From a virus: a stretch of DNA of 37,540 bases. The translations under genes and the position numbers were made by a program. Within the stretch, counting starts at the first letter, position 1. Every line of letters begins with the position of its first letter. The notes beneath the pieces are model-generated. The model saw only the letters and a program-made list of their open reading frames with translations, searched no databases and had not been told where the DNA came from. Shown here in pieces: positions 17,026 to 37,309 of this stretch. Location: positions 1-37,540 of IMG/VR virus record IMGVR_UViG_3300042402_001492. One strand, written 5' to 3'.

Positions 17026-18384
17026 TTAGTTGATGGTCACAATTGCTTCAATGACTCCAAGACTTTCGCTTTCTTTGGATTCTAGAGCACGACCAATTAC
17101 GTTAAACGCTGTGGCTTCGCCTGCTTTAGCAGCGCGAGCTAGACCGTTACCTGCTGCTACTAATCGGTCACCTTTGCAGATTGACCCTGTTACTCTAACT
17201 GGTACACGACCTGTCATTGCGATAGGAGGGTGAGTTGAATCTGTTCCTGCACCAGAGTTCATTAGATAAGCAGCTCTTGTACTTATCACTCCGAACACAT
17301 TTTCACTTAATTCATCTACACTTTCGGTAATTTCAGCCGATCCGCCAAGTTCAACCACTGTACCCGGCAACATTTCTACGTCTGCTGCAAAACGTTCTGC
17401 AACGTCGGCGTATAAGGCTGTAGTGGCTGTGGCAAACACTGTGTTGAACACAGCGCCAGCAGCACCAATATTACCTACACCGCTAGAGTTTAAGTTGGTA
17501 ATACCAAGAACACCTACTTGGCTAGTGGAACCATTAATTAACAAGGCTGTGGTAGTTGAACCACCGTCGTTTACTTGAATATTGATGTTGGCATCTTGTG
17601 TTTGATTTTGAATATTAACCGCTGAAGTGGCCAATGTAACAGAAATCTTTGCATCTTGATCCAGACCGACTGTGAGCCCTGAATCATTGATGATACCCAA
17701 AGTGCCGCTGGTAGTATCGTTTTGATCACTGCGCAAGAATGATGTACTGGGCACGCCGCCCAATGAATTTGAATCAGTAGAAGTTCCTCTGAATAAGTTG
17801 TTGCTTACTGTGCTGCTGAGCTGAATGCCAGGACTGATAGTAGCAAAACCAGCAATAGCAACCTGAGGAGTGAATGTTGCATCTTTTGAAATGATGCCAA
17901 CAATTGTGTTAGCCACATACAGCTTGATAACCACGTGATCAACAGCGACGTTATCTACTACTGTTTCAACAATGGCGCCACTTGTTCCTTGGCCGGACGA
18001 ACTGGCAGGACCAACTAAAACAAATGCAGTTCCATTCCAAACTTTCAACTGTTGATTAACTGTGTCCCACCAAATGTCTCCGGTGACGTTGCCAGTTGGG
18101 GCTGTGGCACTTGCGGTAGCAGCTGAAATAGTCTTAAAGGCTGTGCCTGTATAAACTTTCATCAAGCTGTTGGCTTTATCCCACCACAGTTGACCTGTTA
18201 AGGGTGCGCCGGGAGCAGTTGTATTAGAACCGTTCTCCAAGAGATGAATAAAGTTCTCATCTAAAAATTCGCCGTAACCAGCGTAGTTCTTACCAACCAG
18301 GATCATGCTGGATGTGGTGTTGATGGTACCGTCTGCTATGGTAGCAAATATAGTGCCATCTGTTAGGTTGATTGTGTATGCCAT
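17026..18384 (-). CDS. Tail-fibre-like structural protein with C-terminal processing or chaperone-like domain
   Basis: 452 aa. The N-terminal region has two copies of a short beta motif, PLTGQLWWDKANSLMKVYTG and GNVTGDIWWDTVNQQLKVWN, at about 60-120; it is common in marine phage tail proteins. The middle is a Ser/Thr/Asn-rich beta region (SSTVSNNLFRGTSTDSN, NIQNQTQDANINIQV). The C-terminal 140 residues begin YADVAERFAADVEMLPGTVV and contain VFGVISTRAAYLMN and MTGRVPVRVTGS, a domain seen at the end of T4-like marine fibre proteins and reminiscent of Peptidase_G2/intramolecular chaperone domains. Whether it self-cleaves is not known. A GGAG ribosome site and a late-promoter-like box lie upstream. 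Confidence 0.82.
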   Translation of the reverse strand: MAYTINLTDGTIFATIADGTINTTSSMILVGKNYAGYGEFLDENFIHLLENGSNTTAPGAPLTGQLWWDKANSLMKVYTGTAFKTISAATASATAPTGNVTGDIWWDTVNQQLKVWNGTAFVLVGPASSSGQGTSGAIVETVVDNVAVDHVVIKLYVANTIVGIISKDATFTPQVAIAGFATISPGIQLSSTVSNNLFRGTSTDSNSLGGVPSTSFLRSDQNDTTSGTLGIINDSGLTVGLDQDAKISVTLATSAVNIQNQTQDANINIQVNDGGSTTTALLINGSTSQVGVLGITNLNSSGVGNIGAAGAVFNTVFATATTALYADVAERFAADVEMLPGTVVELGGSAEITESVDELSENVFGVISTRAAYLMNSGAGTDSTHPPIAMTGRVPVRVTGSICKGDRLVAAGNGLARAAKAGEATAFNVIGRALESKESESLGVIEAIVTIN

Positions 18385-19206: not shown

Positions 19207-22200
19207 TTACTCACCACGAATAAACCTTGCTGCCACAGTGTTCTGTTCTTGCAGAGCAATGCCGTTGCTGGCAGTACCTGCACCAGGTGCGTACCAGCTT
19301 AGACCGCGTTTTACCAAAATAGTAACTTGGTAATTCTTAGTAGGTGGTGTAGTAAACACAATTGTCACTGGGTCTGCGTCTTGAATAGTATAGCCGCCAG
19401 TTTGGCGTATTCCGCCAACATAGACTTCTACAGCTTCGTCTTGCTCTGTGGAATCTAAGTTTGTTACTGAAATATCCGCAGCGGTAAATGTCGTCTCTAC
19501 ACCATCTGCTAGGAAGTTTTCTGAAACCACATAGTTTTGATATTCTGCTGGTAATCTATTTCCCAATCCAATATCATAAACTGCTGTGCCTGCTGCATGC
19601 GTAGCTGCGCCTGTGCCGGCTGTACCGCGTCGTAGACCACTTACAGTGTTGTTAACAGTGTCTCTGCTGCGATAAGCAATGCGTTCACCATCAATGGTGA
19701 TTAGGCCAAATATACCTTGTGGCAAGTTTGGTTCGCTAAGGGCACTGGCATCAACAACCGAGATAATGTCAGCAGTGGCTGACAAAGCGGCTGCCAGTTC
19801 AGTTGTGGTTGATGGTGTGATACGGTAAGTGCTTTGCAGACCGCGCATGTCTTGGAATATACGGAAAGCAATAGCTCCAGGAATCACACTGGCAGTGTAG
19901 CTGGTAATACTGACCACTTGTGAAGCATTGATCACAGGACCTGATACAGTGACCACAGATCCATCTACTGTAAAACCAGTCCCCTCAAACAAGTAAAATC
20001 CGTCAAGTGTGACTTCAATTCTTTCTACGTTGGCAATAGGACGACCTGTGTCAAACTCGTTGGTTTGAATCACGCTGCCTGCACTGTAATCAAACGATCC
20101 AGGTGCATTGTTTACTGTGCCGTCGTCGTAGTCGGTGTCGTCGTATCCTTGGCTAATCAACACACCGTCTGTGCTTGGTCCTTGGAACACCTGTGTCAAG
20201 ATATTTTGTTCGCTGGTGTCGTTGAATGTGGTTACCGAAACAATGTCGCCAGCAATAGGAATCAAAGATCCTGTTGTTTTCCAAATCAGTGTGTTACCGC
20301 TGATATAATATTGAGCAGCGGTGCGCACTGATATCAAGATTGTGGCGCCAGCTGGTGGTGAAGCAGTCAATGTAATAGTTCTATCTGTGCTGCCATCATA
20401 TGGGTCTACTACAAATTCAACACCCAGTACTAATGGCTCATTGTTGACGTAAACAGTAACATCGTTATCAGAAATTAGGGCCTGGCTGTATCCGCCGCGT
20501 GTAGGCAAGTAGTATTGCAAGCTGGAACCATCATCAATGTATTCTACACCTTCGGCAGGTCTGGCTCTGATACCGTTTTTCTCAACAATTATGTTGGCAG
20601 GGTTGGTGCCTTCTAAGCTGTTGGTCAATGTGTAAGCAAAGTTTACGCCGTCGGCCACAAAATACTGTGTCTGCGGAATACTCCATGAGTAGCCACCAGC
20701 AGTGGTTCCCATGGCAGTGATAACAAGTTGGTCGGCCGAGGTATATGAACTTGAGAATGTAATCAGTATATTATAGGTATCATAGTCTACGAATGTGTAG
20801 TTGGTAATCAACTCACCGTTGACAAATATTACCAACTGCTCAATGAGACTATATTGAACTGGTACTATCAATGTGTTTGATTCTATATCTGTGCCGTTGG
20901 CAGATTCAACATAAAGCTGATTGCCACCACCTAAGCTGTAGGCTGTTATTACCAGTGTATCACCTTCTTGGGCATCACTTGATACTGTGGCTGTTTGATT
21001 AGGCCAGTCTAACTCAAAATTTACGTCTGGAGTTAGCTGCACGCCAGCAGTCAAGTTGTAAATCTGTACAACAGCTGGGTAGTCCAATAGTCCTGCCCAG
21101 TTATAGTTTTCTGTGGCTGCTGCGTACACATACCTACGCGACGACACCGGAAATCCGTGCCCGTTGACGTCCCAATCAGATCCCAGTGTGGTAAACACAC
21201 GCATATCTAATGTATCGAACATGGCTCCTGGCACTAACTCTTCTGGTGCATGACTTGAATATGTGTCGACAAAACCACCACCGTCTACTACAATTGGGTT
21301 AGGACCAGTGGTAGGCGGTGCACCTGCATAAGCAGGTGCTGGCAACGTGCCTAGGTAAGGATCTGTGAACTCGCTTTCGTAGATAGTATCTAAGATAGCA
21401 GGGTCGTATGTGGGACGACCTTCTGGGCCGTAAGCTAGGTTGTCAAAAGGATTGATGTCAAAGTTGCCAACGTCAAATCCAGTATTTTGATTAAAATCTG
21501 GAGCAGATACTTGAACGCCCGGATAATCAACACCAGTGATCAATAAGGCCAGGTCCAAGCCAGGTTCATTTACTTGCGGCGTATAGTAACCCATTGTGCG
21601 GTCGACACCGCTGAGGTCGCCGGCTGGAACAATGGTCCATTGATCTGGGTCAAATGTTGGGCTTAGTACTGCGGTGCTGTCGTCAGAGTTAGCAGCCCAT
21701 ACACGATCAATATATCTTACTTGTGTTCCATTGTCGTAGCTGACATTGGGTTCCCAATCTACAACGGTGGTCTGATATTGATAACGGTCGTACTTGATTG
21801 TGGTTACGATATCTCTTACTAGGCCGTTGCCCATTACTGCCACAGCACGGGCTCGTCGACCCAAATAAGTCAAGACAGCAGTCCCGTCAATCACAGGAGA
21901 TACTGTGGCAGTGGGTGGCACTACATTTAAGAATCCACTAGCAATGACATTATACACTAATCCAGCCGGGGTCTGGATTACTGCACCAGAAAATACTTGA
22001 GTATTGCCGGACCAGGCCACTGCTTCTGGCAATCCTCCAAAGATAGTTATTACGGGTGTGGTAACAAAATTATCTAAAGTGCCAATGACATCAACAGCCA
22101 CAACAGACCCAGCACTGTTGACACGACTCACTAGCGCAGTGGTTGGTTCACCATTTAACAGCACTTCTGGTGGCAATTGATATCCTTCGCCGCCATCAAA

Positions 22201-25200
22201 CACATTAACTGATTCAACCGTGAGTAGATAGTTTTGATACCACTGATTCCACGGAAGGGTCTGCCAAACTTCACTGGTGCTAGGTAAACTGCTGGTTGTG
22301 CTCAACACTGGTGGGATTGCATTGTCCAACACCGGGCTTATGTAAAGATTTTTAGCGGCATCCCAATACGCTGGCAAATCAAAGTCGTTGACTGTGCCGT
22401 TGTATTGATCAGAGCCGTCGTATATCAAATTGAATTCGCGAATTTGCACGTGGTACGGTTTGACTTCCTGAATGTAGTTCAATACAAAGTCTTGATTGTC
22501 CTTGCGATAAGACTGGAATGGTACCAAGTTTCGTATGGTGTGGTTCACATCAATCAAGCTGGTCTTGGCTAACCAAGTGGGAGCTTGCTCTTCAGTCAAA
22601 ATGTAGTTGAACATCAAGATCAACGCACGGTTGCGTTCAATCAGCAAATCACCTACCAGCAGTTCTTCGTTGACAGCTTGTATAATCTTGCGTGTTTCGA
22701 TTACAGGCTCTTGGTCGTAGTACTGTGCATCAAATACTTCTACGTCAAAGCCAAAGCGACCCAGGCTGTAATCCCACAAGGTAGCAGAAAATTCTATTGT
22801 ACCGTCTTGCAGACCCACTCTAGTCCAAGTAGGAACTGTAGCGTCTGTCAGTTGATAAATTTCCCATTTTCCTTGAGCATTTGCAGTTACTTTAACGCTG
22901 CTGCCTTGCGGTACTGTGATTGTGTCCAGGGCTGAGTAGTTAGGAACTTCAACGATGATACGTGTTGCTGAATCATACCCAGGCTGATACCAGTTGATGT
23001 AGTTCCAGTACAGTTTGGTGTCGTAGTTTTGAACTCGCACTAATACCAGAACTTTTTCACCTGGCAATACACCATTGGCAACTTGATATATGGTCCATAG
23101 ACCGTTGTTGTTTGCATCGCTGGCCACAAGATATCGGTAACCTACATCTACTGCTGCTAGATCTTGATACGTTAGTTCTTCGTAGTTGGCCACTCGCTTG
23201 TTCCAAGCACCAGAATAACTGGATGGCTCTGGTTCTGCACTGTTCAACAGATTAAACACACGCGATTCTGCAATAGGTAACTGCAATAGAACTGTGTTGA
23301 CACGGGTCAAGTAGTTCTTGAGTGCCAAAAATCTGTTGACAAACATACTCTGACGTGGTCTTGAAGCCACACCGTATTGCTCGCTGATAGGGGCTGTCGG
23401 GTCTGGTACTGACGCACCTGTTACGTCTACGCCGCAGAAACTGTCTTGTAGTTTGTTATAAAGTGCAGGCGATAAAAATCCATCAGCTCTGTCCTGTACT
23501 ATCAGTTGATATTCCACGTGTACTGCTGCATCATTGAGAGTCTGATCATATTCCACGTGCAAGATGGTGTCTTGTGCAGAAATATATTCAAGACCGTTGT
23601 AGATGGCCACTGTGCTGGCGTTGATAGGAGCAATATAACTTATTCCGCTGCTTCTGGGACTTTCAATGTAGTTGCGAATAGTTTCAATACTGAGTGTTTT
23701 CTTGGCCGCAGTATTGACTGTGTTTATTCCAGAGACCCAGAAATAATACTCTGTGGAGAATATTCCTTGCTGGTTCAAGCTACCAGAGATAACGTAACTG
23801 TTGAGATCTGCTGGTGTGCCGGGTCCTGTGTAGTCGACTGGAGCTACTACACTGGCGACCCACTGATATATATCGACTGTGCTGTCTGGAAATAACTGTC
23901 CCCATCTACGGCTGGCATACACAACATCGTCTTGATTTACGTCAATGAATCTGGCATTACTGGTGTTCCACCAAATTTCGCCCACGTGTTCTTGTGTCCA
24001 ACTACCGCCATAGTTGTTGAGTGCACCTATGTTGTAAGCAGCAGGATCTATTGCGCCAATGTAGTTGATGTTCTGTGCAACCACCCCCAGCAAGCGACCT
24101 TGTAGGGGATCAAAATAATCAAAGTACTGTTTTGGCTTGTTGGTCACACGGTCGTACATGTAAACAGTATTCAACAGGTTAATGTCAACTACTGGTTGTT
24201 GTACTCGTGTGGTTTGCCAAGCTGGCAACTGGTTGTCGTTTCTGAACCAAACAGCTCGTCCATAGTTGGCAGCACTGTCGCCTTGGTCATTGCCGGGTGC
24301 GCCGATCAACAAAGTGCCAGTGGTGTAATCAACGCCGGCGCCAAACTCATCCAAGCTGGCCATTGAGTCGTCAAAAATCTGTTGACCAAACACAAACTGT
24401 GCAGGATTAGACACTGACGGAGAAGCAGATGGCAACTGATCGTATAGATAAACCACACCGCTTTGTGCGATTGCGTCACTGAATATAGTGGTCTTGGCGT
24501 CAAACGTTGTGGTTTGATTGTCAAATGTCACAAACTCTATTAGTGCGCCGTTTGGTGCACTGATCAATAAACTTGTGGTGTTGTCGCTGATAAAAACTTT
24601 TTTACCAAAGTTTGCATAAGACTGTGGCACTGGAGATAAGATCTTTTGCTGATGTACGTAAAGGTCAAAGCCTATGTCAGCAAATGCTGTTCCAGTACCA
24701 GGCAAAACTTGCATTCTGTTGAGTGGGGTTGATGCTGCAAAATTCTTCACTGACAGCACTATTCTACCTGACACCACAGTGATTACGCTGCCAAAAGTTG
24801 GAGCAATGGTAAATGTCACAGTTTCGTCAGTGTTGCTGTACACATAGTTTACGCCGGCAGTTTGTAACACATCGTCGATCAACACACGGGTAGTATAGGA
24901 AGAGGCAGCAGAATACACTGAACCAACATCAAATACTGTGGAAGTTCCGTCACCCAACAGTTCCACGTCAACAGTTGCGGCGGCCTGTATGTTGGGAACG
25001 TTGGCTGCGTTAATGTCATTGACTAGGTCTTCTATGGTGGTACCTGTTAGTGCAACAAAGAAACTACGAATACGCAGAGTGTTGCCTACTGTCAACACAG
25101 GGTTGGCAACAGTGCTGGTGATTGTACCATACACACGGGCTTGGTTGATATCAAATTCTACAAAACCTGACTGTAGTAGTTCAGAGTCAGCAAATGGTGC

Positions 25201-28200
25201 TCCAATGTACACGCTGCAATCGTTAATACACTGGTCAACCACATATCCAAACTGATCGCTGTTGCCAGGAGTTTCTGATATTATAGTTTGTATCAACGCA
25301 AAATTGTTGGTTTCAACTGTTACAATGTCGCCTACAGCGATTGCAGTGTCAACAAGTGTTACTGTGCTACCAGCAACAGAGAATGTTCCTGCAATATTGC
25401 CATTGGTATTAGTCAGGAACTGACCATTTAATAGAACTGAAACAGGTGCAGTCGGAGATTCCACAGTGGTATAATTAACAACACTGGCATCGGTCACTTG
25501 GAAATTCTGTATACTTCTATCAAACACATACACTTTACCAGCATCAGCAATACCGTTGACACTGACAGTAGGAGTACCTACCATAACTTGACGTCCGTCG
25601 GTGGTTGTAGATACGCTGAATCCAAATTGTTCTGTGCTGGATAACCCAGGAACAGTTAAAGTGTCAACCAAGGTGTAGTAAGTTTGTGCTTTTACAGCAA
25701 TCTGCGCAGTGTTGGCAGGAGCTGTGGCAAATATAAGGTTCTGCGATCCATCAACTGTGTAGTCAATCTCAGGACGTTGTATTGCTGAATCAAGGTAAAC
25801 CACAACTGCGTATTCATTGACCGCAGAATATATGTTGGCCAAACTGAAAGTGACAGTGGATCCGTCGCCTGCAAATGACGAAGCAGCACGACGAGTGATT
25901 GTTACCAATGAACCTTCCAACGGAGGAACAGGGAATACTACATAATTGTCGGACACAGTGTAATCTGTGCCAAATGTCTGTATTTGATCGCCTACTGCCA
26001 CTGACAGTTGTTCGTCAGCAGCAATAACAATTTTGTCGCTGTACAAGAACAAGTTTTGGCTGGCACCAGCAATCAATTTTGTGGACTGTGTCTGATAGTC
26101 TACCCGGCCATATGCATAAACAATATTTCCGCCAGGTGCGCCCACATAGATCCAACGCTCGTCTTGACTCATTGTGACTGAGTGTCCAAAACGGTCAGTA
26201 GATGTCACAGCATCAGCAGGAGGAATTGCCAGCAACTGTGCCTGTTCAAATACGTTTGATCCCGGATCTCTATAGATTACAGCAGCATATCCACGATCGG
26301 TGGAACTGGCACTGGCACCTATAACAGCCCAGTTTTGATCGCCAATGTCGGACGCATTGCCGTAGCCGGCAGCATCAGTGGTACCTAGTTGCAAAATACT
26401 GTTTTGTTCGTACACATTGTCAGGCGTCTTAACATAAGTGTACACCGCACCCGGGGCGGTGCCCGCTGCGGTGGGGTTGTAGCCAGGAGCTCCAATCAAG
26501 GCGCTGAGATTGCTGAGACCTTGCGCAACACTGGCACCAAACCGAGTATTTTCGTACTGTGTTTCTGGTATTAATTCTGTAGGTGATCCAAACGGATCTG
26601 TTTTTTCAATAACTTCCCATAGGCCGTTGCCGTTGTTGTCTACCCATACTCTAGCACCCGGAACCAGCTGCAAGGCATATGGAAGATCAATCACATCGGC
26701 TGCTTGTGCAACGCGAGCAGTTTGTAGTGTAAAGCCTAAGCCGTCGCCAGTTATAGTGGTTTGGAATCCAGTGAATACATAATCAATCAACAAGGATGTG
26801 ATATCTGTTACCACACGCACACGATAGATACCGTTGATTGCTGGGTCAAAGTACTTGATCACCAGCACGTCGCCCACTGACAATCCGTGCGGCTTGCTGA
26901 ATTCCACAAGAGCTCGGCCATCTAAGTTGTCTGATACTGAAGTAATATCACCGGAGATTAACTCTGTGCGGTAAACACTCCAGTCGTAGGGATTGATCTT
27001 GGCCACCCAAATGGTAGTTGCTTGACCGATGTCGTCTAATACCAGGCTGTTGAATCCTGCATCAAATTCAAACAGTGTTAGGTCTACATCATTTAAGTTC
27101 ACGTATCCAGCAGTGGGCAGGGCAACATCTGCCGACGACGGAACAGTAGTGGTAGGCAGAATATCAGGAGAATTTAATACTGTGCTGGACTTCCAGACAT
27201 TTTCTAACAACACTGTTTGATCAGCTGCTGATTCTTGTTGCGGCAATACTACCTGGATCAAACTAGGGTCGCTGGGTAGCAGGGCTTCGTTTAATCTCAA
27301 CTCAAAGTAACTGCGGTTGGCAGTTGCGCCGTACTGACTACGTAAGATAGCCCAGTATTCGTAGATGTCGTATTGTGCTATTTCTTTGCCTAGGTCAGCA
27401 AGACTAAACAGTTCTGCTGCACGTATGGTACCTTTGCTGCCCAAGAACTGTTGGTACAGATTAACTTGGCTTACGTCATCTAAGTTGAGAGCCTGCATGT
27501 ACTCTCTAGGACGGAATCCAATCAAGCCATAACTAAACAGGTCGACTTCGGTTTCAAGGTTGGCATCAAACACGCTGTAGGCTGTGGCCAACTGATCGCT
27601 GGCGTTGGCTGCATTAGGTAACAGACCTTTCTGTATTGCGCCATAGTCGCTCTTGATCCAAAGATTGTAATTAAATTCTTGGCTGGGCTGAATGATTGTG
27701 CCGGATGACCAGTATTCGTTCTTAAACAACACAATCTCACCTTTGGCATACTTTTGATTTGGAATCCATTCCTGTATATTGTCTTGGTTAAGTACGAAAC
27801 CGGGTGCATTAACAGTGCCGTTCCAATCGCCGCTGAGATTACCAGAAACTAAAATACGATTCTGTCTAGCGCCAGTTACCGGTTGATAAATCAAGTCAGC
27901 AAAGATACTGCGATTGTCTAGAACCATCATGTGTTCGTAAGCAGTGAATCTCAAATTAGCAAAGTTTATGGTATCACTTGTCAGTGTTGTTATCTTAAAG
28001 AAATTGTTTAAACGTTCAATTACTAAATTACCTGTTGACAACGGCTGCCGATTTTGATTTAAAACAATATCGTCTGGGCTGTATGTTTTGATGCTGTCAA
28101 CTACACTGAGTGGCTGATCAACACTGATGCTGGTAGCAGCCGGATTCAAGTTGATGATTGTGCCAACTGCCCAGCCCTGCTGAGTCCAGTATACAAATTC

Positions 28201-31200
28201 CTGAGCCATCTGCAGCCAGTCAAGAACATACCCATTTTCTCTATCAGCAAATACCAAGCCTTGGTTTTCCAGCAGTTTACCGTAACTGACCAAAAAGTCG
28301 CAAACACCACCAATGTTGGTAAATGTAAATCCATAAGGAACTTTGACCACGTTTGTGGTATGTTCCAGCGATACTCTGACTTCGTCGGCGCCGATGGAAA
28401 TTGTTGCGGAGCGACCACTGGGTCTCGATTCAAGTATTTCAAAATAGGGATTTTTTGTACTGTATCCCAGCACTGTATAACCGTTTTGTACTTTTTGGAC
28501 AATGACCGAACTGTAGGTTATTTCGTTAAAGGGCTGATTCTTGTACAGCAATAACTGATAGCTTTCGTCTGGTAACAGCAGGCTGGTGTTAAGGCTGCTG
28601 GGTGTAGATCTTTCAGTGTAGACTTTGAGATAATTTTTGTCGCTGAATGCTGCCATTCTCCAACACAAACGAATATCAATGTTGTTTAATGTCAGCGTCA
28701 GATTATCAGTTGAGTTAATACCCAACTGACGGTTGTAGTCAATGATCCAGTTTAGGTAGCTGGCCTTGCTGGTACCATTGCCGTATAACGGTGTTAATTT
28801 TTTAGCATCTAAACGATAACGGCCATCCCAGAGATACTGATCTAAGGGTGCATCAAACACATAACGATCGCGATCCGATAACAGACTGAAGAATTCAGCT
28901 GGTTTAGTCAATGCCAATAATCGCATGACTGCAAACGGCCAGGCACTCGAAGTGCGCCATGCGTTTTCTACAGGACCGTCGTCACCAAACGTCCAGCTGC
29001 GACGGAAGCTGGTAGCATTGTAGTTTCCGATCACAGAATATAACGGACCAACCAATTGACCTTCTGAATCAACTGGCAATACTTGCGGCAGTTCTGGACG
29101 AACAAAGCGTGGGTCAACTCTGTAGTTTCCGGGTTCTTTGATCAGGCCAGCAGCCAGATCGTCCCATAGAACTGTGTTACCTGAAGTAAATGGTGCTACG
29201 CCGTATTCTGCTGCCCACCAATCAGGTTCTTCAGTTAAGCCCAGCATTTGCCACGGTGTTGAATCTGGTGTGTAAGTGTCGTAAAAATAGTTGTAAAGTC
29301 CGCGCCAAGCACCAACCGGCGCCGGTTGTGTGGTTAATACATTACTGCTTTGACTATAGTTGTAGGTAAATTCATTATCAGCAATATAATTCTGTGTGGT
29401 ATAATCTAATTTGTTCCAGCCTACCCAAGTCAAGAAGTCTGTGCTAAGAATGTCATTTACTTGGATCAGTGTATACTCTGTGGTTCTAAACTGTCCAGGC
29501 ACAACGTCTTCGTATATCAAAGGTATTGTTGAAACAATCTTCAGGTTGTTGAAGATTCTCTTTTCAAATTCTAATAGTACCTGATCTCTTATATCACTGA
29601 ACGCCAACGTTATAGAGCCATCGTGGCCACGGATGACAACACGCGGATCAACATAAGTAGTATCAACATAAATTTCTGGACGGAACGCAGGATATAATCC
29701 AATCTTGGTTGGCGTGTTAGGCACGTAGCTGCCGTAAGTGGTTGGATATTCACGAATCTGTATAATATCGCCAACAGCCAGTGCTGTGGTAATCACAAGG
29801 CTTGGTGCATCTGGTACTACATCATAATCGTATCCACGAGTCAGTAGTATGCCGTTTAAGAATACCGATAGACCCAAATAGTTTGATGCTGTAAAATCGT
29901 ATGTCTGAATGGTGTCAAATGTGGGTGTGCTGACAAACGAATAAGTGTAAGTATTCTCTGTATAAGTTTCGCCAGCAGTGATCATGTCAGACCAGTAGAA
30001 CGGCGATATTTCGCTACGTCCCAAGCTGATCTCTTGTAGCACTGCGTCAAGCACTTGCGTGGCTGTTAAGTTTTCAAAGTCGCCGTTGGCTGTGAGATCT
30101 AACAGCAAGGCTTTAAATTTAGCATATTCTCTGCTGTTGAATTCTAAGGAATTGAACAGTTCAAACTGTTGTTTGCGTAAGAACACACCGGTCAATGCCA
30201 ACGGTGACGAATGCTGGACAATGACATCGCCATAGGTGATGATATCGCCTAAGTCTCGTGTGTTGTTGGCTCCAACAATAGGTCCTTGAATAGTTTTTAG
30301 ATTCTGACCAATGCTTTCGTAGTGTGTACGGATAGTGCCCAGTGTAAATGTGTTGCTGTTTTCGTTTAGCGGATTATTTTCTAAGTTCAGCGGTATTTGA
30401 TAAAACCCAATGCTGCTGGTTTGGTTGCTTAGAACTTGTACTTCAATTACAGCACCGGTGGTCACACTGTCTACCAGGGTTATTGTGGTAGAACTTGCGC
30501 CTGTTGTATAAGTGTAGTTTGTGGGATCTAAGAAAATACCTTCTACAAATAACTGTATTGGTGCGTATACAGTTTCTGTATCAATAGCAATGTCCAACAC
30601 CAGGGGAGATTGGTCATAAACAAAACTAAACACCTGGCGACTACGATTTTCAGCGGCCGCACGTTGCCAGCCTATTAGACTACCAAAAGTTACACGGTCT
30701 ACATACTGTCTAATAAATCCTGTACTGATTGCCAGTTCTGAACTGGCATTGTTGCGAACATAGATAAAAGTGTCGGTGTAAAGATAATTTTCAAATACAA
30801 TATCTCCCACGTTGCTGATATTGAGATATCGTAACGGGAATCCCAAGAATTCGTCTATAATTTGTGTGGTGCCGTTGGCATAGCCAAACAGTTGGCTACC
30901 TCTAAAAGTGGTACTGGGATAAACAACAAGATTACTGAAGCTGACACCATTGGCATCAAATACATCAAACAGGGGCGGTTGGTTCACATTGATTTTTTCT
31001 TGTGCTGGCAACCAATTAACTCCGTCAAACCAAAAACTCTTTCCTTGTTGAATATTGCCACTCAGTGTAACCACAGTTTGATTTACTAATGCAGTGCCGT
31101 TGGGCACTTCAACTAAGTCAATGATTAGAATACCGCTGTTGTTGGGATCAATGAACTGTACTTCGTAAATTTTATTGCGTACATCTGGATCAAGATCAGC

Positions 31201-33324
31201 AGCAAATATTACGCGGCTACCAGTGATAAATGTGTAACCATCAATGCCGTAGCCACGCTGACCGTTGATGTTGCTGAGTGCATCAGTTTCTACAAAGTCA
31301 ACTATGTCAACCGGTTGCTTGCCTTGTGTTCCAAAATTGTACAGATTAATATCAGCACGGAATTCAATGATGGGACGCTTGGCACGACGACTGTTGTCGA
31401 TTACCTGATCTTGATTATTGTAAGTAGCTGTGGCTCTAATAACATCAATGTGGAACCATCGGTTACTGCGTGTCCACGCATTGAGATCTTGACTGGCACG
31501 ATTGATGGTGATATAGTCTGGCACAGTGGGTGCGTTTAGACTTGAATCGTAGGGTTCGCTGTCGTAGCTGGTACTGTCGTAGGGAATTGTTGCGCTGCGT
31601 GTATAGGTTTCTGGAGTTACAAAGTTGCTCACCGGCAATAGTTTAATACCGTTGCCTATGTTGATACCAGTTACAGCAGTGTTGGGTAATGCAGCACCTG
31701 CAGGAGATCCGGCTCCTGTATTCAATATGCTTTCTTCTACAGTTTCATAGATGTACTGATGAAAACTACTGGTATGAGTGCTGCCTGTCATCCGTTGGCC
31801 TTGGTGCACATGAAAGGCACCAAAGTACGCTTCGCCATCTACAAATCCCACGCGAGCATCAACTCCGGGTCCAGTGCCAACACCTTCTACATAGTATTCT
31901 AAGTTTTGATAGCGAGCAGGCTCAACAGGTCCACGGAACTGTACTTTAAGTCCGTTGGTAAACACCACTCCATTGGGACTGGTGTAATTTTTAGCACCAA
32001 TGATGTCGTCCAGGTCAATAAATAACTCTTCACCTGGATCTACCAGTTTGATACGACCATACAATGCTGGATTCTCACTGTCTTGATAAAAGAGATCATC
32101 AAGAACCGCAGTCAACAACGGAACTTGTTGGAAATAGCCTTCAGCATCTTTGTACCATTGGGTACTGGCATAGACTGTACCAAAGTTAATGGTAAACTTG
32201 CTGAAATTGGCAATTGTCTGTATGCTGGTCAACTGCATAAACGGATTGCCAGACAAGTCGTTGATGTATTGAATCTGCCAGATACTGTAACGCTGTGCTT
32301 GGCTGTCAATGTTGGTAGTTTGATCAAATGTGGTTGTGTCAAAGCTGCCAACAAGTCCGTTGTCGGCGTTGTCGCGTGGCAAAGGATCAAACTGTGTGGT
32401 CACTTGCCAGCCACCAGCTTCGGCATCAGCAGTGGTGTTGGTAAAAATTACAGTACGACCATTGAGGTTGGTGATACCGTCAATACCTTCTGGATATTGA
32501 GCTAAGAATTCGCTGACATAAACATTGTTGAGCTGATTGAACTTTAAACCTGTCAACAAATCCACTGTGCCAATATTGGTCAGTGTGTAGTAAAAGTCTT
32601 GTGCTGTTTTAAGAGGAACATTAAAAGTAACTGTGCCCTGTGATTCACCGTTGTTGACCACTCCTAGTACATCTCTGCTGCTGATGTTGGGAGTAGCTGG
32701 CATACGACCGTTGACGCCAGGTGCTGCTTGAATCCAAAAATCAAAGCCGGGTTGATTGACTACAAACTCATAGTTGCCGCCACGAACCAAGGTCAGCACA
32801 GGATTGTTACCGGCCAGGTCGCTGAATGTATAAGCTGTTTCTCCGCGGGTGATATCCCACGAGTCAGTTAGAGCAATAGGAGTGCCAAACACATCAACAG
32901 AATCAGGACCTTGCGGTAACCAGTAATATTGGCTGTAGTTTGTGAACTTGTCTAAGTCGCAGAAAGGATCCCAGGCGTAGTATTCGCTTTGAAACAGTGC
33001 ATCCTGGCGTGTGGTATCAGCACCTTTGATATTCAGTGCGTCAATAATACCAGGATACGTAACAACATCCTCAACTGTGTTGGTATCAGGCTTTAAGAAA
33101 ACAACACCAGGTTCAAGTTGGTAATCACTTCTTGTGGCAGTTGGTTCAGTAACATAATTGTCAGCAGGGTTAACACCTGGGCCAACTCGCCGTCCCACAT
33201 ATCCTTGAGTGCGCTTGATAACAGCTTCTTGAGTCAGCTGATCGAGTGTGGCATTGAAGAATTGACGGTTCGTTTGTGTACGAAATATTTCTGGTAGTAG
33301 GTCTACGGTGCGACGTGTGGCCAT
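19207..33324 (-). CDS. Giant tail/baseplate structural protein, 4705 aa
   Basis: One uninterrupted frame of 14.1 kb starting in a TAATG overlap with gp6. The N-terminus (LLPEIFRTQTNRQFFNATLD, GYVGRR, YQLEPGV, YSQYYWLPQGPDSVDVF) resembles large structural proteins that follow gp6 in marine T4-like phages. Residues about 175-250 (LTLVRGGNYEFVVNQPG, NISSRDVLGVVNNGES) look like a small beta-sandwich. Residues about 2255-3020 hold seven FG-GAP-like blades. Beta modules of the form V-x-[LV]-N-G-x-x-L ... Y ... V-T-[IL] ... A-P recur near 926, 1148, 2421-2548, 2618-2675, 2785-2852 and 4079-4480. Later landmarks are VGEIWWNTSNARFIDVNQDD (about 3110), GGGFVDTYSSHAPEEL (about 4011) and IDGERIAYRS with LRRGTAGTG (about 4540-4570). 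It probably forms a large peripheral baseplate or fibre structure that contacts the host; no enzymatic domain is recognised. Confidence 0.88.
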   Translation of the reverse strand: MATRRTVDLLPEIFRTQTNRQFFNATLDQLTQEAVIKRTQGYVGRRVGPGVNPADNYVTEPTATRSDYQLEPGVVFLKPDTNTVEDVVTYPGIIDALNIKGADTTRQDALFQSEYYAWDPFCDLDKFTNYSQYYWLPQGPDSVDVFGTPIALTDSWDITRGETAYTFSDLAGNNPVLTLVRGGNYEFVVNQPGFDFWIQAAPGVNGRMPATPNISSRDVLGVVNNGESQGTVTFNVPLKTAQDFYYTLTNIGTVDLLTGLKFNQLNNVYVSEFLAQYPEGIDGITNLNGRTVIFTNTTADAEAGGWQVTTQFDPLPRDNADNGLVGSFDTTTFDQTTNIDSQAQRYSIWQIQYINDLSGNPFMQLTSIQTIANFSKFTINFGTVYASTQWYKDAEGYFQQVPLLTAVLDDLFYQDSENPALYGRIKLVDPGEELFIDLDDIIGAKNYTSPNGVVFTNGLKVQFRGPVEPARYQNLEYYVEGVGTGPGVDARVGFVDGEAYFGAFHVHQGQRMTGSTHTSSFHQYIYETVEESILNTGAGSPAGAALPNTAVTGINIGNGIKLLPVSNFVTPETYTRSATIPYDSTSYDSEPYDSSLNAPTVPDYITINRASQDLNAWTRSNRWFHIDVIRATATYNNQDQVIDNSRRAKRPIIEFRADINLYNFGTQGKQPVDIVDFVETDALSNINGQRGYGIDGYTFITGSRVIFAADLDPDVRNKIYEVQFIDPNNSGILIIDLVEVPNGTALVNQTVVTLSGNIQQGKSFWFDGVNWLPAQEKINVNQPPLFDVFDANGVSFSNLVVYPSTTFRGSQLFGYANGTTQIIDEFLGFPLRYLNISNVGDIVFENYLYTDTFIYVRNNASSELAISTGFIRQYVDRVTFGSLIGWQRAAAENRSRQVFSFVYDQSPLVLDIAIDTETVYAPIQLFVEGIFLDPTNYTYTTGASSTTITLVDSVTTGAVIEVQVLSNQTSSIGFYQIPLNLENNPLNENSNTFTLGTIRTHYESIGQNLKTIQGPIVGANNTRDLGDIITYGDVIVQHSSPLALTGVFLRKQQFELFNSLEFNSREYAKFKALLLDLTANGDFENLTATQVLDAVLQEISLGRSEISPFYWSDMITAGETYTENTYTYSFVSTPTFDTIQTYDFTASNYLGLSVFLNGILLTRGYDYDVVPDAPSLVITTALAVGDIIQIREYPTTYGSYVPNTPTKIGLYPAFRPEIYVDTTYVDPRVVIRGHDGSITLAFSDIRDQVLLEFEKRIFNNLKIVSTIPLIYEDVVPGQFRTTEYTLIQVNDILSTDFLTWVGWNKLDYTTQNYIADNEFTYNYSQSSNVLTTQPAPVGAWRGLYNYFYDTYTPDSTPWQMLGLTEEPDWWAAEYGVAPFTSGNTVLWDDLAAGLIKEPGNYRVDPRFVRPELPQVLPVDSEGQLVGPLYSVIGNYNATSFRRSWTFGDDGPVENAWRTSSAWPFAVMRLLALTKPAEFFSLLSDRDRYVFDAPLDQYLWDGRYRLDAKKLTPLYGNGTSKASYLNWIIDYNRQLGINSTDNLTLTLNNIDIRLCWRMAAFSDKNYLKVYTERSTPSSLNTSLLLPDESYQLLLYKNQPFNEITYSSVIVQKVQNGYTVLGYSTKNPYFEILESRPSGRSATISIGADEVRVSLEHTTNVVKVPYGFTFTNIGGVCDFLVSYGKLLENQGLVFADRENGYVLDWLQMAQEFVYWTQQGWAVGTIINLNPAATSISVDQPLSVVDSIKTYSPDDIVLNQNRQPLSTGNLVIERLNNFFKITTLTSDTINFANLRFTAYEHMMVLDNRSIFADLIYQPVTGARQNRILVSGNLSGDWNGTVNAPGFVLNQDNIQEWIPNQKYAKGEIVLFKNEYWSSGTIIQPSQEFNYNLWIKSDYGAIQKGLLPNAANASDQLATAYSVFDANLETEVDLFSYGLIGFRPREYMQALNLDDVSQVNLYQQFLGSKGTIRAAELFSLADLGKEIAQYDIYEYWAILRSQYGATANRSYFELRLNEALLPSDPSLIQVVLPQQESAADQTVLLENVWKSSTVLNSPDILPTTTVPSSADVALPTAGYVNLNDVDLTLFEFDAGFNSLVLDDIGQATTIWVAKINPYDWSVYRTELISGDITSVSDNLDGRALVEFSKPHGLSVGDVLVIKYFDPAINGIYRVRVVTDITSLLIDYVFTGFQTTITGDGLGFTLQTARVAQAADVIDLPYALQLVPGARVWVDNNGNGLWEVIEKTDPFGSPTELIPETQYENTRFGASVAQGLSNLSALIGAPGYNPTAAGTAPGAVYTYVKTPDNVYEQNSILQLGTTDAAGYGNASDIGDQNWAVIGASASSTDRGYAAVIYRDPGSNVFEQAQLLAIPPADAVTSTDRFGHSVTMSQDERWIYVGAPGGNIVYAYGRVDYQTQSTKLIAGASQNLFLYSDKIVIAADEQLSVAVGDQIQTFGTDYTVSDNYVVFPVPPLEGSLVTITRRAASSFAGDGSTVTFSLANIYSAVNEYAVVVYLDSAIQRPEIDYTVDGSQNLIFATAPANTAQIAVKAQTYYTLVDTLTVPGLSSTEQFGFSVSTTTDGRQVMVGTPTVSVNGIADAGKVYVFDRSIQNFQVTDASVVNYTTVESPTAPVSVLLNGQFLTNTNGNIAGTFSVAGSTVTLVDTAIAVGDIVTVETNNFALIQTIISETPGNSDQFGYVVDQCINDCSVYIGAPFADSELLQSGFVEFDINQARVYGTITSTVANPVLTVGNTLRIRSFFVALTGTTIEDLVNDINAANVPNIQAAATVDVELLGDGTSTVFDVGSVYSAASSYTTRVLIDDVLQTAGVNYVYSNTDETVTFTIAPTFGSVITVVSGRIVLSVKNFAASTPLNRMQVLPGTGTAFADIGFDLYVHQQKILSPVPQSYANFGKKVFISDNTTSLLISAPNGALIEFVTFDNQTTTFDAKTTIFSDAIAQSGVVYLYDQLPSASPSVSNPAQFVFGQQIFDDSMASLDEFGAGVDYTTGTLLIGAPGNDQGDSAANYGRAVWFRNDNQLPAWQTTRVQQPVVDINLLNTVYMYDRVTNKPKQYFDYFDPLQGRLLGVVAQNINYIGAIDPAAYNIGALNNYGGSWTQEHVGEIWWNTSNARFIDVNQDDVVYASRRWGQLFPDSTVDIYQWVASVVAPVDYTGPGTPADLNSYVISGSLNQQGIFSTEYYFWVSGINTVNTAAKKTLSIETIRNYIESPRSSGISYIAPINASTVAIYNGLEYISAQDTILHVEYDQTLNDAAVHVEYQLIVQDRADGFLSPALYNKLQDSFCGVDVTGASVPDPTAPISEQYGVASRPRQSMFVNRFLALKNYLTRVNTVLLQLPIAESRVFNLLNSAEPEPSSYSGAWNKRVANYEELTYQDLAAVDVGYRYLVASDANNNGLWTIYQVANGVLPGEKVLVLVRVQNYDTKLYWNYINWYQPGYDSATRIIVEVPNYSALDTITVPQGSSVKVTANAQGKWEIYQLTDATVPTWTRVGLQDGTIEFSATLWDYSLGRFGFDVEVFDAQYYDQEPVIETRKIIQAVNEELLVGDLLIERNRALILMFNYILTEEQAPTWLAKTSLIDVNHTIRNLVPFQSYRKDNQDFVLNYIQEVKPYHVQIREFNLIYDGSDQYNGTVNDFDLPAYWDAAKNLYISPVLDNAIPPVLSTTSSLPSTSEVWQTLPWNQWYQNYLLTVESVNVFDGGEGYQLPPEVLLNGEPTTALVSRVNSAGSVVAVDVIGTLDNFVTTPVITIFGGLPEAVAWSGNTQVFSGAVIQTPAGLVYNVIASGFLNVVPPTATVSPVIDGTAVLTYLGRRARAVAVMGNGLVRDIVTTIKYDRYQYQTTVVDWEPNVSYDNGTQVRYIDRVWAANSDDSTAVLSPTFDPDQWTIVPAGDLSGVDRTMGYYTPQVNEPGLDLALLITGVDYPGVQVSAPDFNQNTGFDVGNFDINPFDNLAYGPEGRPTYDPAILDTIYESEFTDPYLGTLPAPAYAGAPPTTGPNPIVVDGGGFVDTYSSHAPEELVPGAMFDTLDMRVFTTLGSDWDVNGHGFPVSSRRYVYAAATENYNWAGLLDYPAVVQIYNLTAGVQLTPDVNFELDWPNQTATVSSDAQEGDTLVITAYSLGGGNQLYVESANGTDIESNTLIVPVQYSLIEQLVIFVNGELITNYTFVDYDTYNILITFSSSYTSADQLVITAMGTTAGGYSWSIPQTQYFVADGVNFAYTLTNSLEGTNPANIIVEKNGIRARPAEGVEYIDDGSSLQYYLPTRGGYSQALISDNDVTVYVNNEPLVLGVEFVVDPYDGSTDRTITLTASPPAGATILISVRTAAQYYISGNTLIWKTTGSLIPIAGDIVSVTTFNDTSEQNILTQVFQGPSTDGVLISQGYDDTDYDDGTVNNAPGSFDYSAGSVIQTNEFDTGRPIANVERIEVTLDGFYLFEGTGFTVDGSVVTVSGPVINASQVVSITSYTASVIPGAIAFRIFQDMRGLQSTYRITPSTTTELAAALSATADIISVVDASALSEPNLPQGIFGLITIDGERIAYRSRDTVNNTVSGLRRGTAGTGAATHAAGTAVYDIGLGNRLPAEYQNYVVSENFLADGVETTFTAADISVTNLDSTEQDEAVEVYVGGIRQTGGYTIQDADPVTIVFTTPPTKNYQVTILVKRGLSWYAPGAGTASNGIALQEQNTVAARFIRGE
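24280..26560 (-). other. FG-GAP-like beta-propeller region within the giant protein
   Basis: Seven segments follow the pattern F-G-x-x-V ... [VI]-G-[AT]-P: FGASVAQ with LIGAPGYN (about residue 2260), WAVIGASASS (about 2335), FGHSVTMSQDERWIYVGAPG (about 2378), FGFSVSTTTDGRQVMVGTP (about 2568), FGYVVDQCINDCSVYIGAPF (about 2691), FGKKVFISDNTTSLLISAPN (about 2905) and FGAGVDYTTGTLLIGAPGND (about 2993). FG-GAP repeats build the integrin-alpha seven-bladed propeller. Here several blades are separated by inserted beta modules. Confidence 0.7.
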
Positions 33325-36300
33325 TAGTATCCACCTCCACCATTGCTGGGTGAATAACCACCTCCACCATTGCTGGGTGAATAACCACCTCCACCATTGC
33401 TGATAGAGCTGGACTGAGTGCTTGTGATCACTGTTCTCTGTCCACTGGTGCCTTGGCTTATGGCAGTTGGGTACAGTCCTGAAACAGCAGTTTGACTGCG
33501 GATGTTGCTTTGTGTCAGCGCATCAATCACTTCAATGTCCGATACTGTGGCAGCACTGACAAAAATTTCGTTGGCAGCTGAACGTATTTCATATAGATCA
33601 CCAAAACTCTTGAGAGGATTCAGAGGTACTAACACCACTGAACTAATGATTGATCCCAACTGTCTATGTAGATACGCAGCAAGCTCGCTGAAGAAAAAGC
33701 TACTGCCAAAATCCCATTTATCTATAGTAAAGTATTCATTGATATTGGCAATCACCTGGCTCTTGATTTCGCTCACACTGGCAGTGGTATTGGCTGCACG
33801 GACTACTTTGATTGTGGCACGTAGTTCTGGAGCAGCTTTGGCGCCAAATAACGGCTTGAATATCACTGAGTTTAGAATCATATTGTCTGAAATCATTTTA
33901 TAATCGTTAAGATCAGAATAAGCTACACTAAGATCATTAATAGTAGGCGGCGTAGGTTCTTGTACAGATCCAGTTGTATCTTTGATATAGTTCTGATATG
34001 CAGTATAGTATTCTTGATTAACAAGATAGACGTCAATGATGTTGGTAATTCCAGGATCAATCACATTGGTCAGTCCACTATTGTGACGGTATTGGAAATA
34101 CAGGTCCTGACGGCCAACTCTGGCGTCAAAGCCGCTGCGCGGTATTACAGTACGCTGTATAATGCCATTGACATTAGAAATCACTAATTCGTAAAATAAA
34201 CCACTTTCATAGGCATAAAAAATCTGCCCATTAATGTATTGACTCTTTACCAGTTCAATAGCATCTTTGGTGGCGTAGGTTGAATTGACTACGCCTGCTG
34301 CCACCGGCAAATAATTTTCAGTGTTGTTAGCATCAACAGTTAACTCTAAAAATACCAGTTTGGAATTTGGATTCACTGCGGGGGCTACAATTTCGTCAAA
34401 GAAGTCTGGATTGTCAGCAACGCCGTCACTGTCACTGTCTCTGTAGCTGACCACAACTTGAAAGTCGTTTACATAGCCATCGCTTTGAACTGGCTGTGCA
34501 ATAATTTCCATTGATATGTCGCCCGACAGCGGCGAGTTTGAATCTGGCTTAGAATTGGTTTTGAGTACACGCACAAAGTCTTTGATCACTTTGCCTGTCT
34601 TGCTGTCGTATATTTTTTCACTGGTATCAAAGAAAAATCTAGTTTCAATAATGCTGGCAAAAATATAATCCAAACCGCGTGATACCACTGTGTAAGACTG
34701 TCCGTTGGTCACAAACTGCACCAACCAGCTGGCGTCAAGATTGATACCTTGAGTATTTTGCGCATTTGCCAAGCTGAAAGGAGCATCTTGCGCCAAGTTA
34801 GTGCTGGTGATAACATACCAAGTGCTGGTCAAGTTGTTATAGCCCAGGCCAAAGTTTCTAAACAGTTCAATCTGCTGCAACATGCTTTGTTCAATCGTGG
34901 CAGGAATGTCGTCTACAAACTTGGGAATTACTTGTTGCGCCAGTGCACCTGTAGGCACAAATATGTTGAGTGCGACAGGACCAGAACCGTCTGGCAAGTT
35001 GCCTAGGCCTGATGCTGTTCCTTCCAGAACTACTGCGCTGACTGTGGCCCAGATTTCTAACTTTTCGTCAGCACGGATTGGTACACCTGCTACCAAGCGA
35101 TTGTTGGCATCAAAGAAATAACCAGCTGGCGGAATAAATTTTACTAGGGAACCTTGAGTAATATACTTGGCGTTGTTGCTGGCATATCCGCCAATGTTCT
35201 GCGGGGTCAAGTTGTTGGTATTATAAAAATATCCAGTGGTTTCATTTACCACAGTTGTGCTTTGATTCCAAGCCAGGTTCAGTACCAGCAAGTTTGGACG
35301 CAGATAATTAGCGTAGTAAAACTGCAATATGCTTCTTGAAGTCAGCAAGGGTTCTATTGAATTTGTTATGATATCTACAATGTCGTTTCTGTTGACCCAG
35401 TCAAACTCAAAACTGATAAGAGGATTTTCTTCATACAACATGCCGTCGCTGGCAAAAATATTTGTGCTGGAGTACTTGCCGGTCACATCTGATAAGTCAA
35501 TGTATCGTGTGGTGCCTGTGGCTGAACGTGCCACTGCCTTGCTTTTTATAATGCTGTTGTAACGAGTAAACGGAAAGTTATTGTAGTCTTCACCGTTGAC
35601 CATTCTATTCTGTGTGTAGTAACGTGCAGGTGCACGTTGTTTAATTTCTTCTATGGTTTCACGCTGTTGTGCATTTGAAACAGGGTTAGTGATACCGCAA
35701 TTGAAAGTCAGCACTTCGTTGCGACCAAATCTGCTGACATAGGTAATCTGCAGCACAACACTTTGCATTTCTTCAGGATTAATGATGTACTCTAATCCGT
35801 TTGAAGCACGTACATAGGTACGGAAAAATCCCACTGGCACTTCTGAAAACACACCGTCGCCAAAGGTCAAGGTAATCTGATCATTTACACGACTGGTTAT
35901 ACTGTAGATCTTTCTTTGATTTGGAGCCAACTGTTCAACCGCAGCAGCGTAAATGCTTTCAGCATACGCCCACTCGCTGGCCACTGTTCCGATGTCATCC
36001 AGTTGATACAACCAGTAATCTTCGTTGTTGACGCCTTCAATATTGATATCAACTGTGCGATTGGTAATGGCCTCAGCCAAGTTAAAGTCTTGATTTTGTA
36101 GTACACCTTGCTTGAACAGAAAGAAGAAACCAGTGTTGTTAGATCCAAATCCCAGCTTATCGTTGAGGTATAGGATATTAAACTCACCGTTGGGCTGCGG
36201 CGGTGGTTCGTACACATAGTTTTTGCCTTGTGTTGACGAACTCACTGCTTCAAATGGCATGTTTATACCGTCAACATTAGATGTATAAGGTATAACTGGC

Positions 36301-36934: not shown

Positions 36935-37309
36935 TTAGATGAAAGTGGCTCTGCGAGACTCTTGATCAAGGAACAAGGACAGCAGTTGTGCTTCTGAACT
37001 GTTGACTGTTCTGACAAATAGCTCTATGAGAATACCGTTTTCTTGCGGATATATTTGTGCGTCCTGTATAGAAACTCTTGGATCGCCGCCAGCAACTCTT
37101 TGTATTTCGGCTAGCATGTCTTGTGTGGTGTCAATGGCTTGATTTTCAAACACATAGCTCCACAGTGATGTCCCGTACTCAGGACGTCCAGGTATTTCTC
37201 CCTTTTGAATGTTGAAGGCATTGGCCAAATCGCGCTTGATTAACTCAAAGTCAATCAAGGTAAATTTTTTATACTGATTGATAGTATTAAATCCAATGAA
37301 TGTAGTCAT
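36935..37309 (-). CDS. gp25: Baseplate wedge protein gp25 (GPW/gp25 family)
   Basis: 124 aa, close to T4 gp25 (132 aa). The family signature GEIPGRPEYGTSLWSYVFE lies at 37-55, preceded by LIKRDLANAFNIQK and followed by DMLAEIQRV and DPRVSIQDAQIYPQENGILI. gp25 is a core subunit of the contractile-tail baseplate wedge and nucleates sheath assembly in T4; related proteins occur in type VI secretion. Its place immediately upstream of gp6 is conserved among T4-like phages, which supports both calls. The ATG at 37309 is followed in order by gp6 after a 47-nt gap. Confidence 0.93.
   Translation of the reverse strand: MTTFIGFNTINQYKKFTLIDFELIKRDLANAFNIQKGEIPGRPEYGTSLWSYVFENQAIDTTQDMLAEIQRVAGGDPRVSIQDAQIYPQENGILIELFVRTVNSSEAQLLSLFLDQESRRATFI

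Follow-up and report, generated by a model that had tools for sequence, protein, structure and literature searches.

What does an integrin-type propeller do inside a phage tail protein? The question is raised by the IMG/VR virus record IMGVR_UViG_3300042402_001492, all 37,540 bases of which we analyzed (the window). One of its genes encodes a protein of 4705 residues, here called the giant. A sequence-only reading of the record had noticed seven FG-GAP-like blades in this protein, interrupted by inserted β modules, and had suggested that they form a platform for binding host ligands. The blades are encoded on the minus strand, the plus strand containing many stops there.

The propeller fold

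The observation of seven motifs could be confirmed. The FG...GAP-like motifs of the giant begin at residues 2258, 2317, 2375, 2563, 2688, 2902, and 2990, and a plain expression (FG..[V]..GAP) recovers six of them and no other site in the 4705 residues. Shuffle controls gave a mean of 0.03 and at most 2 matches (2000 shuffles of the segment), or a mean of 0.12 and at most 3 (1000 shuffles of the whole protein). The motif that the expression misses belongs to blade 2, which carries a weak variant (AAGYGNA...VIGAS). A profile search, which the sequence-only reading had proposed as a check, places the whole protein in the Pfam family FG-GAP_2 (PF14312) with E = 2.7e-13 and 50.3 bits, above the gathering score of 23. 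The same family matches every member of an alignment of the propeller region at E ≤ 0.01. This alignment comprises the window and 38 relatives (39 sequences) with 39–90% identity to the window; of 48 relative loci, five partial ones were not translated and five near-duplicates were excluded. The FG half of the motif is kept in 38 or 39 of the 39 sequences for each of blades 1–6 and in 26 for blade 7; for the GAP half the count varies between 30 and 39 from blade to blade. None of the 43 translated loci contains a stop.

An AlphaFold2 model of this region, built from the 39-member alignment, reached a mean predicted local distance difference test score (pLDDT) of 88.2 and a predicted template modeling score of 0.87. 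In a Foldseek search against the PDB, integrin chains fill all of the first 50 rows (best E 1.2e-9). The best 50 PDB entries found by VIA-align are also all integrins, with Z 32.4–35.4 and root-mean-square deviations of 2.6–3.0 Å over 349–377 residues. The top match is integrin αM (9t3y_A: Z 35.4, 360 residues, 2.7 Å, model residues 55–851). On the α5 propeller chain 4wjk_A, 377 residues superpose over its residues 1–452, which is possible only if all seven blades follow in the order of the ring. Structure prediction and superposition on complete integrin rings agree, and a seven-bladed integrin-α-type propeller with four-stranded blades in one ring is well supported by the predicted model. 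The region from 24280 to 26560 that had been singled out was correctly located, and the modeled propeller proved to be slightly wider. All positions below are those of the window, and the strands are those assigned by DSSP to the model and read together with the alignment.

24199–26598, minus strand: predicted seven-bladed integrin-α-type FG-GAP propeller with inserts, residues ~2243–3042 (Pfam, AlphaFold2, VIA-align)
26392–26541, minus strand: blade 1, residues 2262–2311
26230–26361, minus strand: blade 2, residues 2322–2365, weak motif GNA...VIGAS
25657–26190, minus strand: blade 3, residues 2379–2556, interrupted between strands C and D
25282–25626, minus strand: blade 4, residues 2567–2681, interrupted between strands C and D
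24640–25251, minus strand: blade 5, residues 2692–2895, interrupted between strands C and D
24376–24609, minus strand: blade 6, residues 2906–2983
24199–24345, minus strand: blade 7, residues 2994–3042

The likeness to integrin α chains extends to the seven FG-GAP blades and to the superposition of the whole ring (Z 33–35, 360–377 residues, 2.7–2.8 Å), whereas sequence identity is only ~15–21%. In integrin α propellers, several blades carry a Ca-binding hairpin (DxDxDGxxD) that joins strands A and B, and such loops had been suggested as a feature to look for in each blade of the phage protein. Here they are absent. The A–B hairpins of the window are 2–5 residues long and contain no DxDxDG loop. 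Measured from the start of strand A to the end of strand B, each blade has a constant length, 16 or 18 residues, across the 39 sequences. Ten of the 39 do contain a DxDxDG-like motif, nine of them before blade 1 and one (L011) within an insert; a second copy, at blade 7, is present in L056 only, the one exception among the blades. A further difference from integrins is that, when the complete giant was scanned with Pfam (E ≤ 1), no integrin domain besides FG-GAP_2 was returned, hence no thigh, calf, or membrane anchor.

Modules inserted into blades 3, 4, and 5

The inserted β modules announced by the sequence-only reading are real. Judged from the strands of the model, inserts of 140, 57, and 161 residues separate strand C from strand D in blades 3, 4, and 5, respectively. 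All three inserts are present in 39 of 39 members, with lengths of 139–361 (blade 3), 56–63 (blade 4), and 96–210 residues (blade 5).

25681–26100, minus strand: blade-3 insert, residues 2409–2548, two tandem ~65-residue modules resembling the T7 fibre anchor (3a and 3b; hhalign, AlphaFold2, fold match)
25327–25497, minus strand: blade-4 insert, residues 2610–2666, one module with a weaker relationship to the others (hhalign)
24661–25143, minus strand: blade-5 insert, residues 2728–2888, with a module at 2786–2860 (hhalign)

Profile–profile comparison by hhalign relates modules 3a and 3b to each other with a probability of 98%, and the module of blade 5 to 3b and 3a with 99% and 97%. The module of blade 4 matches 3a (94%) and is not significantly related to 3b (4%) or to the blade-5 module (1%). 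Copies of a ~65-residue module thus appear to lie in all three inserts, less surely in that of blade 4. The blade-3 modules also match, weakly, stretches of the same protein at residues ~1135–1191, 4288–4335, and 4602–4669 (hhalign).

The blade-3 insert was modeled separately with AlphaFold2 from 25 of the 39 members, leaving aside 14 whose inserts are longer, and reached a pLDDT of 93.2. Its first half superposes on the N-termini of T7-type gp17 proteins with VIA-align Z scores of 8.7–9.4 (64–65 residues, 1.2–1.6 Å). The best rows, for insert-model residues 9–75, are 9efk_AE (Z 9.4, 65 residues, 1.3 Å) and 7ey9_a (Z 9.1), and further T7-type rows score lower. The second half (insert-model residues 73–143) reaches Z 8.1–8.2 at 1.8–2.2 Å with tail proteins of other phages. 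In the relative L050, Pfam finds Phage_T7_tail (PF03906) in the blade-3 insert with E = 5.2e-8, above the cut-off. This family matches 8 of the 39 aligned members at E ≤ 0.01, and the copy in the window does not match it at E ≤ 1. In the model, the pair of modules in blade 3 has the fold of the N-terminal anchor of the T7 tail fibre. Both modules share the fold of the gp17 N-terminal anchor (PF03906) and of the N-terminal domains of CBA120 TSP4; unlike those domains, which form the N-terminus of a fibre, they are internal inserts of a blade.

Judged from the location of the inserts, the kinship of the modules, and the T7-type fold, phage modules resembling fibre anchors have been inserted at the same topological position of consecutive blades. 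This site is not the one used by integrins. The I domain of αM, αX, and αL is located between blades 2 and 3, whereas the phage inserts occupy the C–D hairpins of blades 3–5.

The giant protein, its neighbors, and its relatives

The sequence-only reading had placed the propeller in a phage tail, and the surrounding genes bear this out.

19207–33324, minus strand: giant virion (baseplate-cluster) protein of 4705 residues that contains the propeller (open reading frame, phrog_10938, tblastn)
27265–33324, minus strand: conserved N-terminal part of the giant, residues 1–2020, common to propeller-less jumbo phages (alignment of ten giants)
22156–24156, minus strand: conserved C-flank part of the giant, residues 3057–3723, common to propeller-less jumbo phages (alignment of ten giants)
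33324–36887, minus strand: gp6-like baseplate wedge protein of 1187 residues, directly upstream of the giant (phrog_10646 "baseplate wedge subunit", E = 5.7e-288)
36935–37309, minus strand: gp25-like baseplate wedge protein of 124 residues (phrog_43 "baseplate wedge subunit", 2.8e-10; Pfam GPW_gp25)

The match of the gp25-like protein to Pfam GPW_gp25 (5.6e-6, 26.5 bits) lies under the cut-off of 27.2. The giant itself belongs to phrog_10938 ("virion structural protein", 1019.5 bits), and its first 2181 residues have tblastn matches in 57 of 50,697 phage records. Members of this family are PA5oct gp355, CBB_236, PBECO4 gp538, and Atu_ph07 gp180, which share the N-terminal and C-flank parts and the gp6/gp25 neighbors. 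The order gp25-like, gp6-like, giant recurs in PA5oct, PBECO4, Phosso, and XbC2, and in Atu_ph07 a gp6-like gene is followed by the giant. PA5oct gp355 is annotated with the note ESI-MS/MS (electrospray ionization tandem mass spectrometry), and CBB_236 appears in a table of structural proteins of phage CBB that were checked by mass spectrometry (PMC5259590). It is well supported that the giant, encoded by an uncultured relative of the T4-like jumbo phages, belongs to a virion protein family of jumbo phages and stands in a tail or baseplate setting.

T4 has the gene order 6-7-8, and the giant likewise directly follows a gp6-like gene, in the position of gp7. A propeller may be present in T4 gp7 as well. 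Kinship to gp7 was not found when hhalign profiles of the propeller, the N-terminal part, and the C-flank were compared with the single T4 gp7 sequence (probability 0.1%), and the same three profiles gave probabilities below 1% against all of nine T4 tail proteins. No chain was returned by PDB sequence searches that used the propeller profile, the N-terminal profile (E ≤ 1), or residues 1–2181 of the giant; the C-flank profile gave weak unrelated matches only.

In the alignment of ten giants, the interval that spans residues 2254–3021 of the window (768 residues) measures 176–240 residues in PA5oct, Vibrio 2.275.O, PBECO4, and XbC2, and 407 in SCTP-2. In Atu_ph07 and Phosso (L017, L021) it measures 1316–1322 residues and consists of repetitive "GxGY...P.V...GG" sequence; the site in the giant evidently accepts large insertions of quite different kinds. 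Neither FG-GAP_2 nor a blade was found in the giants of the seven cultured members examined, seven of the 57 records with a tblastn match. In Phosso and Atu_ph07, genes other than the giant carry FG-GAP_2 matches. The Phosso record PV764938.1 contains 64 such matches (48386–68852 and 92229–94508), the majority of them within two open frames that code for 3182 and 3702 residues and are probably arrays of several propellers.

Two samples of uncultured giants were compared, the 80 nearest to the window (best 80 of 585 confirmed stretches) and the 80 ranked by similarity to PA5oct (best 80 of 574). The propeller profile matches 80 of 80 window-nearest giants. With a profile of the blades only, 66 of these show seven blades, nine show six, four show five, and one, which is cut short, shows one; shuffled sequences gave 0 blades in 80. 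In the PA5oct-ranked sample the propeller profile matches 68 giants and fails in 12; by the blade-only profile, 67 giants have one blade or more and 58 have three or more. One giant, L181, matches the propeller profile and has neither a blade nor a Pfam match. Pfam, which is separate from the propeller profile, detects FG-GAP_2 in eight of nine tested giants with a propeller and in none of nine without.

A tree of the C-flank, from which the propeller was excluded, contains 104 rows (16 of the 80 window-nearest giants, all 80 PA5oct-ranked ones, seven isolates, and the window). Presence of the propeller appears on it as a single change that separates 85 from 19 rows with support 100, be it a gain or a loss, which the tree does not distinguish. 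The label "propeller present" rests on the near-clade profile, including inserts and short flanks, and the label "absent" is weak for L149, where only 567 residues lie upstream. Since the N-terminal and C-flank parts are common to phages without it, the propeller is best described as an excursion from the baseplate backbone.

Five propellers (from the window, L041, L050, L158, and L162) served as tblastn queries against the 50,697 phage records and found no blades. The L041 query matched seven Synechococcus phage records over its residues 312–450 only, within its blade-3 insert. A DNA search of the phage records found nothing, and a scan of genome contigs with the propeller alignment, made in search of a host, gave 253 pattern matches and no relative. 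Contigs that bear the propeller reach 320 kb (L038) and 337 kb (L046); at least some carriers are therefore jumbo phages. The propeller is frequent in uncultured giants and the five queries found no matching blades in the 50,697 records, so that cultured phages are not representative of this type of tail.

Several other features of these loci deserve mention. The C-terminal end of the gp6-like protein (33331–33402, minus strand) is coded by perfect 27-base tandem repeats (GGGGYSPSN) directly before the start of the giant. In Salicola phage SCTP-2 (L018, 5633–14923), the gene preceding the giant codes for ~3096 residues, compared with ~1100–1300 for the gp6-like gene elsewhere. A tail gene of 452 residues (17026–18384, minus strand) has a weak Peptidase_G2 (intramolecular chaperone) match near its C-terminus and a tail-fibre PHROG match; it may encode a self-cleaving fibre. 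Downstream of the tail genes, six radical-SAM genes span 2684–11770 on the minus strand, three of them with a SPASM match.

2684–3979, 3972–5393, 5390–6607, 6604–7935, 7917–9254, and 10367–11770, minus strand: radical-SAM genes (Pfam, some scores below cut-off)

A radical-SAM gene also lies downstream of the corresponding tail block in Atu_ph07 and Phosso. From its position, this cluster could serve the modification of virion proteins or of surface sugars. Positions 1–1458 (minus strand) encode a NodU-type carbamoyltransferase with strong matches to both Pfam halves, cut by the end of the record.

Possible roles of the propeller

In propellers the D–A and B–C loops form one face, which is the ligand face of integrins, and the A–B and C–D loops form the other. 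Segment identities to the window were compared for eight giants, and the ranges given here are those of the six more distant ones. Identity is 26–44% in the D–A loops and 42–57% in the B–C loops, 60–71% in the blade strands, 61–84% in the A–B hairpins, and 57–73% in residues 1–2250 of the giant. The inserts are 43–57% identical. Because the D–A and B–C loops share one face and the inserts are located in C–D hairpins, the inserts and the most variable loops are on opposite sides of the propeller.

With these observations, we lean modestly toward the following reading: an integrin-α-type propeller in a giant protein of the baseplate cluster is held from behind by its anchor-like inserts and touches the host with its variable face. 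The baseplate backbone would hold the propeller at the rim of the baseplate. The inserted modules, on the C–D/A–B side, would lock it to neighboring tail parts or fibres. The opposite face, with its variable D–A and B–C loops, would touch a ligand on the host surface without Ca-binding hairpins of the integrin type. In its simplest form, this would be a recognition head held by its back, and the propeller may be these phages' means of host contact. What we computed are the fold, the blade count, the positions and kinship of the inserts, synteny, distribution, and loop variability.

Several points weigh against this reading. The position of the propeller in the virion, the docking of the inserts, and the binding of a ligand are steps that we infer. 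Ring closure was judged from superposition on complete integrin propellers and not from coordinates. The variability of the D–A and B–C loops is only suggestive as a sign of recognition, since the loops of any protein change faster than its strands, and the short C–D loops, on the other face, are also variable (38–55%). Finally, there are cultured members of the family without a propeller, which makes it unnecessary for infection in general.

A scaffold without host contact is the most serious alternative, one that we regard as possible and less probable than host contact. The propeller would be a rigid spacer or a docking hub for fibres and tail proteins, and the anchor-like inserts its working part. 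This proposal accounts for inserts that show homology among themselves and with further parts of the giant, that adopt the fold of a T7-type fibre anchor, and that persist in every aligned member; it also agrees with propeller strands that change no faster than the remainder of the giant. A fixed docking surface should, however, be conserved, whereas the inserts change fast at the identities given above, and the D–A and B–C loops are among the most variable segments.

An improbable alternative is a lectin- or lyase-like head that binds or modifies carbohydrates instead of a platform for protein ligands. The propellers of other phage receptor-binding proteins, such as that of phi11 gp45 with a putative N-acetylglucosamine cavity, are regarded as sugar-binding in PMC6115969, and the giant has a weak CBM_5_12 match outside the propeller, below the cut-off, as do eight of the ten giants aligned. 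Yet the fold is nearest to integrin α rather than to the propellers of lectins or lyases, the propeller of the window matches no lectin or enzyme family at E ≤ 0.01, and among the relatives single members have weak matches to CBM_X2 or CHB_HEX_C_1. That the propeller is a decayed, neutral FG-GAP insertion with no role can be dismissed as most unlikely: the blade-2 motif is weak and some distant members have few recognizable blades, but relatives down to 39% identity retain the seven blades and the three insert positions, in frames free of stops and frameshifts and with strands as conserved as the remaining protein.

The propeller of the giant is not the first propeller in a phage tail. Phage tail proteins with propellers include phiKZ gp131C (seven-bladed, 4GBF) and phi11 gp45 (five-bladed), as described in PMC6115969. 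Neither phiKZ gp131C nor another phage tail propeller is among the best 50 VIA-align entries, all of which are integrins, a result that excludes nothing. FG-GAP-like viral models also exist: a Foldseek search of BFVD gave named entries with E from 1.9e-30 to 1.9e-10, among them uncultured Caudovirales (A0A6J5L8L4, A0A6J5S3H5), cyanophage S-TIM5 (H6WG31), an Atu_ph07 "hemagglutinin", and giant viruses. Unlike the propeller described here, several of these are shorter, separate proteins. Our literature search, in which subscription journals are thinly covered, found no report of FG-GAP in a phage baseplate, and by title and abstract none of the papers on FG-GAP and phages concerns tails. Since viral FG-GAP models and tail propellers were already known, the novelty lies in their combination and in the location within a baseplate giant.

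A broader proposal, which we put forward tentatively and hold to be doubtful, is that a large branch of jumbo phages, so far uncultured, recognizes its hosts with this propeller. A hypervariable ligand face would lie on one side and the anchor-like modules of three consecutive blades on the other, and receptor binding, fibre docking, and the baseplate switch would be joined in one polypeptide, a device that the cultured relatives lack. If true, an integrin-type head in a baseplate giant with modules of the T7-fibre type would represent a different build of recognition device. The propeller of ~800 residues, with its high-confidence model, provides a clear target for finding the ligand of such phages.

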